64,000 bases of DNA from Deltaproteobacteria bacterium (GTDB lineage: Bacteria > Myxococcota_A > UBA796 > SXON01), in contig CANKOI010000003.1 in assembly GCA_947484175.1 (NCBI GenBank), forward strand, positions 1 to 64,000. Direction: 5' to 3'. The notes under the pieces were generated by a model, which was given only the letters and a program-made list of their open reading frames with translations, was not told the DNA's origin and did no database searches. The translations under genes and the position numbers were made by a program. This document shows positions 8,364 through 46,026 of the stretch, piece by piece (the stretch's first letter is position 1; every line of letters begins with the position of its first letter).

Positions 8364-8825
8364 TCAGGGGGCGCCGGCGCAGGCCCGAGTGAAGCGAGGT
8401 GAGTGCTCACCGATCGCTTCGGGCCGCACCACCACGGCGTTCGCGGCGTCAATGAGGTCGGAGGCGCTCTCTGGCTGAAAGGGCGGCCCGAACGCGCAGC
8501 CGGTCGCCGTGAGGAACTGCACGGTACCGGTCGCCTGAGCGGCGTCATGCGTGTGGAACAGCGGGTGGAAGCGGTCGTTGAGAAACGTGGTCACATCGGA
8601 ATTGCCCGCCAGCGTGTCTACGGCGCCGCCGGGCGTGTCGACAAAGACGGCAACGGGACGATCCACCGGGTCGCCGTCGCCCCGCCATTCCACCCAGCGC
8701 GCCGTGGAGGTGGATCGGGTAGCCGGTGCGGGGTCGGGCGGATCGCCGCATGCCACCAGCACAAGCAAGGGGAGTTGGAGGCGACGGGCGGAGTTGAACC
8801 GCCGAATGATGGTTTTGCAAACCAT
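8364..8825 (-). CDS. Predicted lipoprotein, possibly thioredoxin-like fold; start uncertain and may lie inside tRNA-Cys
   Basis: From ATG 8825: MVCKTIIRRFNSARRLQLPLLVLVAC|GDPPDP gives a plausible lipoprotein signal; alternative TTG start at 8768. Confidence 0.5.
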   Translation of the reverse strand: MVCKTIIRRFNSARRLQLPLLVLVACGDPPDPAPATRSTSTARWVEWRGDGDPVDRPVAVFVDTPGGAVDTLAGNSDVTTFLNDRFHPLFHTHDAAQATGTVQFLTATGCAFGPPFQPESASDLIDAANAVVVRPEAIGEHSPRFTRACAGAP

Positions 8826-8852
8826 TGCCTTAGGCCACTTGGCTACGTCGCC
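8776..8852 (-). tRNA. tRNA-Cys(GCA), CCA encoded
   Basis: Cloverleaf by eye: GGCGACG acceptor / CGTCGCC, anticodon loop TTGCAAA, T-loop TTCAACT, discriminator T then CCA. Confidence 0.93.
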
Positions 8853-30298: not shown

Positions 30299-30523
30299 AT
30301 GGAGTCGCACGAGCTCACCGTGCTTGAGGCGTTGGCCCCTCAAAACGACGAACTTCGGCATCTTTGGGGCCGGCATCAGGGCTACGAACGTGACCTGAAT
30401 CGTCTGGACGGCCTTCGGTACCCTTCCGAGGCCGAGCGGCGCGAGATCGGGCGGCTGAAGCGCGTCAAGCTGCGGGGCAAGGAGCGTATTCAAGCGATTC
30501 TCGACGCTCATCGCAACGTCTGA
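30299..30523 (+). CDS. YdcH/DUF465-like small protein
   Basis: 74 aa; 'EHELxxLHxxxDxxIxRLD'-like 'DELRHLWGRHQGYERDLNRLDGLRYPSEAERREIGRLKRVKLRGKERIQAIL'. Confidence 0.75.
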   Translation: MESHELTVLEALAPQNDELRHLWGRHQGYERDLNRLDGLRYPSEAERREIGRLKRVKLRGKERIQAILDAHRNV

Positions 30524-30540
30524 CTCAGACGGACGTTGAT

Positions 30541-30800
30541 GCGGCTCGCCGCGCAGGACGCGGCGCCGTTGGGGCGGAGGTCCCTGGCCAGCCGGCAGTC
30601 TCGGAAGGAGCAGCGTGAGGAAAATCCGGTGTTGGCGCGGGGTCCTGCCGCTATTGGCCGCCCCTGCGCTCGCCCCGCAGCGGGGCTCGGTCGGGACGGC
30701 CAACAGCGTCACCCAGCCCGTCACCTCCCCGTCCAACCGCAGTGCCCAGCGAGGAGGTGCCGGGCTGCCCAAGGACTCCGCGAGGCTTGCTGCAGCGGCT
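30541..30800 (+). repeat. Structured intergenic repeat, copy 1
   Basis: Ungapped alignment to 42611..42870 at constant offset 12070, about 204/260 identical by hand count; stem 30649-30664 / 30693-30708. Confidence 0.88.
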
Positions 30801-30834
30801 CCGCACGGAGCGTGGGGGGGATAGGGGGGCCCGC

Positions 30835-31842
30835 ATGACGGGTCCGACGATCGCGGTGCTGGGTGCCACGGGCAACGTAGGGGAGGCGCTGCTTGCGCGC
30901 CTCGCGGCCAGCCCGCTTGGGCAGGGCGAGGTGGCCGCGTACGCGAGCCGCGCCACTCGGCGCGAAACCGTGGACTTCGGCGGGCGCACCCTGCATGTTC
31001 GCACGTTGGCGGAGGCCGCCGACTCCGGCGCCAGCTTGGTGTTCTGCGCGCTCCCCCCGGGCCTCGCCCAGCGAACGGTGCCCAGCTTCACGGCTCGGGG
31101 CGCGCTGGTGATCGATGTGGGCAACTCCTGCGCGGGCCTCTTCGCGGGGCCGCTCTGCCTTGGCGATGTGCGCCCCATCGACGAAGCGGCCGTCGCTCGG
31201 GCCGGGGGTCTGCGTACTCCCGGCGCCCTCGGCTGGATGCTCACGACGGTGCTGGCGCCGCTGCTTCCGCTCGGCGCCTGGGGGGTCACGGGCCTCGCGA
31301 ACCTGCCGGTCACCGCGCACGGCCGCCTCGCCACGGAGGAGTTTTCCGAGCAGGTGGTGGCGTCGTTCAACAGCAAGGACCCTCCTCGCCGCCGCTTTCC
31401 CGAGGGCATCGCGTTCGACACGCTCCCCGAGGATGTGGATGCCGGCGAATGGAGCGACCGGGAGAGGAGCGCTGCGGCCGAGGTCTCGGAGCTCCTAGGC
31501 GTGAACCCCGGCCGCATCGGCGTGCAGGTGTGCACCCAGCCCGTTTTCTCCGGGATGACGGCAGCGTTGCACATCCGCGGCGTCGACGACGCGGAGGCTG
31601 CCGAGACGGCCCTGCGAGAGGCGCCCGGCCTCGCTACGGCCGCGCGGATGCGGTCGCTGCGGCCGCGCAAGGTGATGACGAAGGCGCCGGTCTACTTCGG
31701 AGGTGTCCGTGCCGACCCCGCGGGCGATGGCATTCACCTCTGGCTGGCGGCGGACAACCTGGCCGGCGCCGGTGCGGCGGTGCCCATCCTGTTGGCTGAA
31801 CGGTTGCTCAACGCCGGCGTTACCACGGAAGTCGACGCATGA
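30835..31842 (+). CDS. Aspartate-semialdehyde dehydrogenase family, USG-1-like
   Basis: 'TIAVLGATGNVGEALLARLA', 'KVMTKAPVYFGGVRADPAGDGIHLWLAADNLAGAGAAVPILLAERLL'; catalytic-Cys region reads TPGALGWML. Confidence 0.8.
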   Translation: MTGPTIAVLGATGNVGEALLARLAASPLGQGEVAAYASRATRRETVDFGGRTLHVRTLAEAADSGASLVFCALPPGLAQRTVPSFTARGALVIDVGNSCAGLFAGPLCLGDVRPIDEAAVARAGGLRTPGALGWMLTTVLAPLLPLGAWGVTGLANLPVTAHGRLATEEFSEQVVASFNSKDPPRRRFPEGIAFDTLPEDVDAGEWSDRERSAAAEVSELLGVNPGRIGVQVCTQPVFSGMTAALHIRGVDDAEAAETALREAPGLATAARMRSLRPRKVMTKAPVYFGGVRADPAGDGIHLWLAADNLAGAGAAVPILLAERLLNAGVTTEVDA

Positions 31843-41438: not shown

Positions 41439-41854
41439 CGGCGCACCCGCCGCGCGGTGCCGGCCGCGAGGGGCACCCACCGCTCCGCGAGTACGAAGCG
41501 CTCCATGGTTACGATTCGGAAGCCGAACTCTACCGCTACAGCATCGGCGGAATCGGCCTCCCCTGGGTGATCCTCCACCCAGCGGCGCGTTTCGTGGACG
41601 ACCCACTCCTGCGAACACGGAAACCCATCGGGCCGGATCTGGGCCGGGTCGATCCCTACGAACGCCTCCAACGAGGTGGGGGCCACCTCTTGGCCTGCGA
41701 CCCGCACGCTGAGCACGGCGCCCTCGGTACGCCCGCGAAGTTTTGCGTACATCACGTAGCGGGAGAAGGGGAACCGATCCCCGACGCGCCACGACACGGC
41801 GAAGTACACGGCCAATGCCAGGAGCGCGACGGCGGTATGGGTCAACGCCGACAC
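41435..41854 (-). CDS. Small membrane-anchored protein (module member B1)
   Basis: GTG start near 41854; TM then 'ETRRWVEDHPGEADSADAVAVEFGFRIVTMERF'; overlaps A1 and A2 ends. Confidence 0.65.
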   Translation of the reverse strand: MSALTHTAVALLALAVYFAVSWRVGDRFPFSRYVMYAKLRGRTEGAVLSVRVAGQEVAPTSLEAFVGIDPAQIRPDGFPCSQEWVVHETRRWVEDHPGEADSADAVAVEFGFRIVTMERFVLAERWVPLAAGTARRVRR

Positions 41855-42594
41855 GAGCGGCTCCCCACGGCCACGGCGAGCACCGTGAACAGCCAGTCGT
41901 AGTGGTGGAGCCCCATCAGGAGCGAGATGCCGACGTGTAGGAACAGGGCGCCGATGGCCCAGACGGCCCGCAGGCCGGGCCACAGGAACGCGACCGCGCC
42001 GAGCTCGATTACGAGCGTGCCTACGCCGAGGGCGCGGCACACGACCGGGGAGCCCGCCACCCACGTTCTTAGCGGCTCCAGCTCACCGAGTCCGCCGTAG
42101 CCCTGCGCGAGGATGTGAACGCCGAGGTTCGCCTGAGAGGTCCACGCCCAGCCCGACCCGCCGAGCTTCGCCACCCCCGCCAGCAGGTAGCAGGCGGCCA
42201 CGAGGCCGGCGGCGGCGTCGATGCCGGCGCGGTCGCGGCGCTCAGGCGGCACCATCCCCCGGGCCACCGCCATCGCCACCAGGGCCGCACCGGGCAGCAT
42301 GACCGCCCCGTTCGCGCCTTCGTCGCCGGGCCACTGCCACCCCTGCACCGCCGCCCCCGCCGCCAGCAGCGCCGCAAGCGCCACCATCGTCGCTTGCCCA
42401 CCCCGAACCACGAACCACCCCAGTAGAAGGGCGAACACGACCGTGACGGCGGCAGCGGCCACCGGGTGAGTGAGCGGCCCCAGCCACTGGAGCGCCGCCG
42501 GAGCGTGCGGCACCCCCTCCACGCGCTGCACCCGTGCGAGGCTGGCCCAAGCGAAGAGCAGGCCCACGGCTTGGAGCGCGCGGGACGCTCTCAT
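41842..42594 (-). CDS. HTTM-like polytopic membrane protein (module member A2)
   Basis: 'AGVAKLGGSGWAWTSQANLGVHILAQGYGG', 'VIELGAVAFLWPGLRAVWAIGALFLHVGISLLMGLHHY'. Confidence 0.7.
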   Translation of the reverse strand: MRASRALQAVGLLFAWASLARVQRVEGVPHAPAALQWLGPLTHPVAAAAVTVVFALLLGWFVVRGGQATMVALAALLAAGAAVQGWQWPGDEGANGAVMLPGAALVAMAVARGMVPPERRDRAGIDAAAGLVAACYLLAGVAKLGGSGWAWTSQANLGVHILAQGYGGLGELEPLRTWVAGSPVVCRALGVGTLVIELGAVAFLWPGLRAVWAIGALFLHVGISLLMGLHHYDWLFTVLAVAVGSRSCRR

Positions 42595-42610
42595 GCGGCC
42601 GGTCCTCGGT

Positions 42611-42870
42611 CGGGCTCGCCGCGCAGGACGCGGCGCCGTGGGGGCGAAGGTCTCTTGCCACCCGACAGCGGTTGTCGGAGGCGCGTTTGGAAAAGCCAGG
42701 GTTGGCGCAGGGTCCTGCCGCAGGTGGCCGCGCCTCCGCTCGCCCCGCAGCGGGCCTCGGTCGGCGCGGCCACCTGCGTCACCCAGCCCGTCACCGTTCC
42801 GTCCAACGGCGGCAGCCGACCAGAAGTCGCTTGGCTGTCAAGAGACTCCGCTGGGCTTGCTGCTGCGGCT
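42611..42870 (+). repeat. Structured intergenic repeat, copy 2
   Basis: Ungapped alignment to 30541..30800; perfect 15-bp stem GCAGGTGGCCGCGCC (42720-42734) / GGCGCGGCCACCTGC (42763-42777). Confidence 0.88.
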
Positions 42871-42912
42871 CGCCACAGGGCGCGTTCCTGCGCGAATCGC
42901 AAGCTGAGCTTC

Positions 42913-43323
42913 TCACCGCCCCCGCCGCGCGCTTCCCGTAGCGTCGATCCGGTCGGTGGTGACGATGTCTCCGCCCTCCGAGAAGTGGAACACCCGCAGG
43001 CCCACCGCAACGGTCACCGGGCCACCCGCACCCTGATGGTCGTCCAGCCACCGGCGCGTTTCGACGAACCGATGGGCCACAGGTGAGGTGTAGCCGGGAT
43101 GGTCAACGTCGACCTGGGCGCCGGGGAGGGCTGCGAAGTCGACGAAGTCCGTGGGCTCGGAGAGAATGCCATCGGCCACGAAGATCGGCACGGCGGCCGG
43201 CGGCTGAACGAGCGGAAAGCTGAAGGCGGGAAAGCGCACGAAGGGCACGCCCCCGCCGACTCCCAGCGCGAGGAGAACGTACGCAGCGAACGGGAGCGCG
43301 GCGGTCGTCGGTGGCGCCACCAT
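42913..43323 (-). CDS. Small membrane-anchored protein (module member B2, paralog of B1)
   Basis: TM then 'RFVETRRWLDDHQGAGGPVTVAVGLRVFHFSEGG' parallels B1. Confidence 0.6.
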   Translation of the reverse strand: MVAPPTTAALPFAAYVLLALGVGGGVPFVRFPAFSFPLVQPPAAVPIFVADGILSEPTDFVDFAALPGAQVDVDHPGYTSPVAHRFVETRRWLDDHQGAGGPVTVAVGLRVFHFSEGGDIVTTDRIDATGSARRGR

Positions 43324-45950: not shown

Positions 45951-46026
45951 TGGAGCGGGTGAAGGGAATCGAACCCTCGACAACTAGCTTGGGAAGCTAG
46001 CGCTCTACCAACTGAGCTACACCCGC
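45951..46026 (-). tRNA. tRNA-Gly(CCC), CCA encoded
   Basis: GCGGGTG acceptor / CACCCGC, anticodon stem-loop CTAGC-TTCCCAA-GCTAG, T-loop TTCGATT, CCA. Confidence 0.93.

Follow-up and report, generated by a model that had tools for sequence, protein, structure and literature searches.

A GC-rich, structured interspersed repeat family at gene ends in one bacterial genus

The genome of this Deltaproteobacteria bacterium carries a previously undescribed repeat family that is confined to one genus and has dozens of copies per genome. One strand of the element has evolved under a constraint that keeps a fold, made up of a closing helix (P0), the long arm that it encloses (P1, in which motifs of the internal loops and apex are conserved), and a 3′ hairpin (A). 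The element has proliferated separately in most species of the genus. We consider it probable that the family is a MITE-like interspersed repeat of ∼325 bp, presumably mobilized by a trans-acting transposase and putatively carried as a structured RNA in 3′UTRs, with its fold under selection.

Two copies lie in the window, the 64,000-nucleotide stretch of DNA analyzed here. Positions 30541–30800 and 42611–42870 align without gaps over 260 bases with 78.5% identity (BLAST E of 1.9e-61 within the window). The features that the initial annotation had described in this alignment were recovered: the P1 stem (30649–30664/30693–30708) contains two A.C mismatches in copy 1, its counterpart in copy 2 is fully paired, three of its base pairs covary with exactly the positions and bases reported, and the hairpin CGCCGCG-CAGGA-CGCGGCG at 30547–30565 is invariant. 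The annotated extent of 260 bp, however, is too short, as the element of the host family spans ∼325 bp; matches to the family profile cover 30522–30814 (copy 1; E of 5.7e-87) and 42593–42910 (copy 2). The strand assigned to the fold was also wrong. It is the minus strand that folds, and what looks like two A.C "mismatches" in copy 1 pairs as G.U on that strand. Copy 1 has an eroded TIR at its left end and is missing the end beyond the C domain. A third copy is located on the same contig just beyond the window (C3:67829–68082). Features of the window are as follows:

30299–30523, plus strand: 74-aa gene, convergent to the RNA, with a TGA stop that abuts copy 1; it adjoins the semialdehyde dehydrogenase gene in nine relatives
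30521–30814, minus strand: copy 1 of the element (family profile match), bordered by the TGA of the 74-aa gene at 30521–30523
30547–30565, minus strand: A hairpin, CGCCGCG-UCCUG-CGCGGCG in RNA sense, near invariant, the motif being present across the genus
30574–30593, minus strand: P0 closing helix, RNA 3′ strand, in the consensus fold and the fold of copy 1
30630–30728, minus strand: conserved core of copy 1 (R2 covariance model, 104.1 bits, E of 3.3e-20; plus strand, 21.7 bits)
30649–30708, minus strand: P1 hairpin, a 16-bp stem (30649–30664/30693–30708) capped by a conserved apical hairpin
30763–30781, minus strand: P0 closing helix, RNA 5′ strand, paired with 30574–30593 in the consensus fold and in copy 1
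30784–30793, minus strand: C motif, GCAGCAAGCC in RNA sense, a conserved loop whose distance to the core is nearly fixed in the majority of copies in most genomes
30835–31842, plus strand: semialdehyde dehydrogenase-like gene (PF01118, PF02774) beyond the opposite end of copy 1 and divergent from the RNA
41842–42594, minus strand: gene with its ATG directly after the RNA 3′ end of copy 2
42591–42915, minus strand: copy 2 of the element, between two TCA triplets that form a 3-bp direct repeat (TCA...TCA)
42700–42798, minus strand: conserved core of copy 2 (R2 covariance model, 96.8 bits, E of 1.1e-18)
42913–43323, minus strand: 136-aa gene with a TGA stop directly before the RNA 5′ end of copy 2

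Two tRNA genes are also on the minus strand of the window (8779–8852 and 45954–46026), and neither has a copy of the element beside it.

Read in RNA sense, the element starts just past the stop codon of the upstream gene and proceeds through the C motif, the 5′ strand of P0, and a linker to GGGUGAC, the P1 arm with its conserved CGAG...CGAG apical loop, and GGCAGGACCC. A second linker, the 3′ strand of P0, the A hairpin, and the 3′ TIR complete it. Conservation among host copies differs by part: mean pairwise identity is 0.99 in the A hairpin, 0.85–0.94 in the core, 0.89 in the C block, 0.67–0.73 in linkers, and 0.39–0.53 in the terminal repeats. Spacing of the conserved loops (the C motif; UGAC/GGCAGGA; CGAG...CGAG; UCCUG) is nearly fixed genus-wide. 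GC content of the core is about 76% (range of 69–82%). We do not claim a pseudoknot between the A loop (UCCUG) and CAGGA of the core; the two are complementary in most copies, and variants show no covariation.

The suggestion in the initial annotation of a maintained RNA or ssDNA structure is supported by covariation far above that of controls. When 62 copies from three genomes are aligned in RNA sense, 92.9% of cells at stem positions are paired, relative to 77.7% in shuffled alignments and 37–47% in slid ones. Changes on both sides of a pair occur in 218 cells versus 62 in shuffles, and the covariation score of 0.395 compares with 0.130 for shuffles (none of 500 reached the observed score) and 0.055–0.099 for slid controls. 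Relatedness of copies is modeled by the slid controls and not by the shuffles, and the slid values are far below those observed. Wobble pairs identify the strand. In RNA sense, the same 62 copies have 117 G.U versus six A.C cells, whereas the plus strand of the P1 stem has, genus-wide, 124 A.C or C.A cells and one G.U cell. The folding z-score of copy 1 is −2.05 on the minus strand and +0.40 on the plus strand. An RNA from the plus strand was rejected on both the wobble counts and the z-score.

The closing helix follows the same pattern, with 30 G.U versus three A.C cells in the consensus fold of 19 host copies, and in other species it has been remade with different sequence. Duplex energy of P0 averages −34.2 kcal/mol when both strands are from the same copy, −31.2 when one strand comes from a different copy within the genome, and −25.1 when it is from another genome; none of 5,000 permutations, even within genomes, reaches the observed same-copy energy. 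Energy alone does not discriminate between strands, as the minus strand is favored in 23 of 67 copies genus-wide. In nine host copies lacking the right TIR, 36 stem substitutions break four pairs, compared with ∼29 expected under random placement. Because copies share ancestry, retention of stems in TIR-less copies fits with but does not prove selection after insertion; alternatively, all copies could be recent products of diverse active sources.

Locations of copies are consistent with mobility. Insertion sites are mostly non-orthologous across species, and neighboring genes are mostly unrelated between species and differ from copy to copy. The genes flanking copy 1 are 315 bp apart here and, according to tblastn coordinates, 25–107 bp apart in nine relatives. 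Since the two genes are side by side in those relatives, copy 1 inserted in this lineage, directly past the TGA of the 74-aa gene, and its site was filled after the host species split from the sampled relatives. Three orthologous pairs of copies are present between species, and they are not evidence of long retention because a rough estimate of chance predicts about one coincidence per genome pair. In one further case (L112 of genome G005 and L186 of the host), the element is located past the stop codon of related genes with 69% identical proteins, but each copy is of its own species' type, and either shared descent with conversion or independent insertion could account for this.

The ends of copies provide details of the insertion. 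The youngest copies extend from TGA/TCA-TACCGATTGACC through GATCAGTTGGTA-TNA, with short TIRs (TACCRAYTGA) represented by the pair TACCGATTGACC and TACCAACTGATC; related ends are found in genomes G003 and G005. TIRs are eroded or missing in about half of the copies. In five of nine host copies with both ends readable (L002, L004, L008, L014, and L020), the 3-bp TNA flanks are equal, and in the remaining four, the flanking triplets differ. Equal triplets also flank a copy in each of G005 (L115) and G003 (L144). Together, the flanks partly demonstrate a 3-bp TNA target duplication. Scans for the TIRs, exact and with one mismatch, and PF01609 and PF13586 matches in the draft assemblies revealed neither an autonomous element nor a transposase sharing the ends of the family. 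The host genome has three PF01609 matches, all at contig ends and without visible link to the ends of the element, and PF13586 was not found in it.

Copy number is high in the host and variable across the genus. BLAST detects 42 matches in the host assembly (94.7% complete; 4.37 Mb in 167 contigs), of which about 20 are full length (∼325 bp), scattered over many contigs in both orientations. Six host contigs (C8, C52, C59, C89, C151, and C159) start or finish in or very near a copy, and the true copy number is therefore probably above this count. With a covariance model of the core (R1), the family is detected in eight of 11 genus genomes, the host and seven others (29, 40, 23, 13, 9, 3, 2, and 1 copies), and has no match in three; G007 has one weak R2 match. 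R1 has no match in 12 other genomes of the taxonomic family, nor has R2 in 56 genomes from other genera of the order.

Subfamilies are specific to each species. All nine copies in G002 (L130–L138) have an extra apical hairpin in P1 that varies in sequence and length (e.g., CAGGTTCGCAAGCGAACCTG), and copies in G003 have a short one. G004 has copies in tandem, and in three arrays (L072, L060, and L075), A and C blocks are repeated, sometimes together with the P1 core and sometimes not, as if modules had grown and shrunk by unequal recombination. Several short copies have lost internal sequence and retain the element's two flanks.

Placement relative to genes is strongly skewed. Where both neighbors were called (46 copies), 31 copies are between convergent genes, nine are between tandem genes co-oriented with the RNA, six are between tandem genes oriented against it, and none are between divergent genes. 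In most host copies, the downstream stop, or the next start, is 95–118 nt from the core, coinciding with the edge of the element. Tandem cases, for example L170, L171, and copy 2 in the window, have TGA as the flanking triplet at either end when read in RNA sense. The stop of the upstream gene accounts for one TGA, and the other, with the last base of the element, recreates the ATG(A) of the next gene. Such flanks are what would remain after insertion, with duplication of 3 bp, where a stop and a start codon overlap.

The initial annotation had listed a novel ncRNA, a post-transcriptional element, or a non-autonomous mobile element as possibilities, and this range is supported by the copies, covariation, lack of an open frame, and lack of an Rfam match. 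Like MITEs, the element is short, multicopy, dispersed, and non-coding and has TIRs and empty sites. AT-richness is typical of bacterial MITEs but does not define them, and the core of this element is GC-rich. In the mechanism that we propose, a trans-acting transposase would mobilize the element via its TACC...GGTA ends and duplicate 3 bp (TNA). Insertions are predicted to persist mainly at gene ends, possibly because the duplication restores a TGA stop that is hit. Judging from gene order, the element would be transcribed as the 3′UTR of the upstream gene, and the folded RNA could block exonucleases, mark an RNase cut site, or end transcription where genes converge. The fold may be selected for this role in 3′UTRs, for a step in the mobility of the element itself, or for both. 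We raise only tentatively a further proposal, that the family is a previously unrecognized class of large, structured RNA, perhaps RNP-associated or catalytic, that spreads as a transposable element via stop codons. Selection on the fold site by site would then make it a portable 3′UTR module that is common to dozens of genes in a genome and evolves in concert within each species.

Somewhat less likely still, the family could be a host regulatory or catalytic RNA (an RNP, ribozyme-like, or trans-acting sRNA class) that turned multicopy, with each copy under selection and the TIRs being relics of its founding. The conserved loops at nearly fixed spacing across the genus are expected of such an RNA, as are P0 strands that pair best within their own copy, even inside one genome, and a fold kept in copies without TIRs. 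But most sites are not orthologous, the site of copy 1 is empty in nine relatives, and the three of 11 genus genomes without an R1 match indicate that the element is dispensable. We therefore regard the host RNA as unlikely and favor the MITE-like reading.

It is improbable that the hairpin acts as ssDNA for a transposase or recombinase (REP/BIME, IS200/IS605-like, or attC-like) and has no function as RNA. One-strand folding asymmetry is also expected of ssDNA, as an ssDNA hairpin would tolerate G.T pairs on one strand, and intergenic placement at gene ends resembles that of REPs. However, Y1/RAYT (PF01797) was not found in the host, G004, or G002, all of which have the family, whereas G007, G008, and G010 have PF01797 and yet few or no copies. 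The ends of the element are also TIRs with 3-bp repeats, and to our knowledge, Y1 elements make neither. REP/BIME repeats with RAYT are likewise hairpins at gene ends, but the element is much longer, has TIRs, and is in a host lacking RAYT.

Spread of a retron-type or other retro-element RNA by reverse transcription is very doubtful. A long closing helix with a long arm recalls the msr-msd layout, and partial copies are many, but no reverse transcriptase (PF00078) is present in the 95% complete host genome, and core copies in the host and G005 nearly always retain both A and C, without consistent 5′ truncation. Fragments with only A had looked commoner, which we considered as a sign of retrotransposition and rejected because A is the best conserved and hence the easiest part to find, and core copies show no such pattern. 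A conserved short protein can practically be dismissed: the copies in the window align nearly without gaps, but all six frames are interrupted by stops in most copies, single-base indels occur, changes follow base pairing, and no frame is open across copies.

The initial annotation had recognized no named family, and none of 4,227 Rfam covariance models matched; weak lines for Pab91 and RsmW were far below the gathering score. Collections of phages and plasmids had no match to the element. Two matches, L079 in a genome collection and L228 in a virus, were attributed to chance because only the typed motif matched and not the element. A pattern search of the genome collection was near-empty, and since the pattern misfits the G004-type loop spacing, we give this little weight.

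Judged by behavior, the nearest analogues are BOX, RUP, SPRITE, and ERIC. Regions between convergent genes are enriched in the pneumococcal repeats BOX, RUP, and SPRITE, and 36 genes have their stop codon provided by BOX (PMC3049150). BOX of Streptococcus pneumoniae (modular boxA-B-C) is similarly a small, modular interspersed repeat that is limited to one lineage, folds stably when transcribed, and is found preferentially between convergent genes and often at stop codons (PMC3049150). In contrast to the AT-rich BOX, the element has a core of ∼76% GC, 3-bp TNA repeats, a separate closing helix, and conserved loops of 10 nt. We know of no sequence relation between the two. Transcripts of MITEs are typically stable stem-loops (PMC10969869; PMC2229807), and ERIC/RU-1, Correia/NEMIS, and RUP are likewise MITE-like, with TIRs, target duplications, and structured transcripts (PMC2229807). 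Those repeats are ∼100–170 bp, with TA-containing ends and a stem loop formed by pairing of the 5′ and 3′ ends, whereas, in a comparison by description, the fold of the element is internal and persists while TIRs erode. SPRITE, a terminator-like repeat, shares tail-to-tail placement and could end transcription, but the element has no T tract next to the A or P1 hairpins and its fold is far larger. Relative to BOX/ERIC-style repeats, the family is new in being GC-rich, in having a larger internal fold that is independent of the TIRs, and in its TNA ends.

Few lineages are known to have small structured repeats of the BOX or ERIC kind, and it is a long-standing question whether the host or the element benefits from their folds. 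This family has dozens of copies per genome, strong strand-specific covariation, clean empty sites, and copies that fold despite eroded ends; it therefore allows selection for mobility to be told apart from that for host function. If the RNA is indeed a portable 3′UTR, the family is a natural experiment in the rewiring of gene ends.

Individual host copies have marks of their own. An insertion of 15 bp following GTCACACA is common to L013 and L019 and sets these copies apart as a sub-lineage. Short derivatives with internal deletions are found at L197:990–1033 and L196:847–1027, the former consisting of little beyond the A hairpin and end sequences. At the start of host contig C56 (L194:1–160), an unrelated tandem repeat (CTCGACCAAGCCTCGAGGTCTCCCCGAGTTCGC...) is next to a broken remnant of a transposase.
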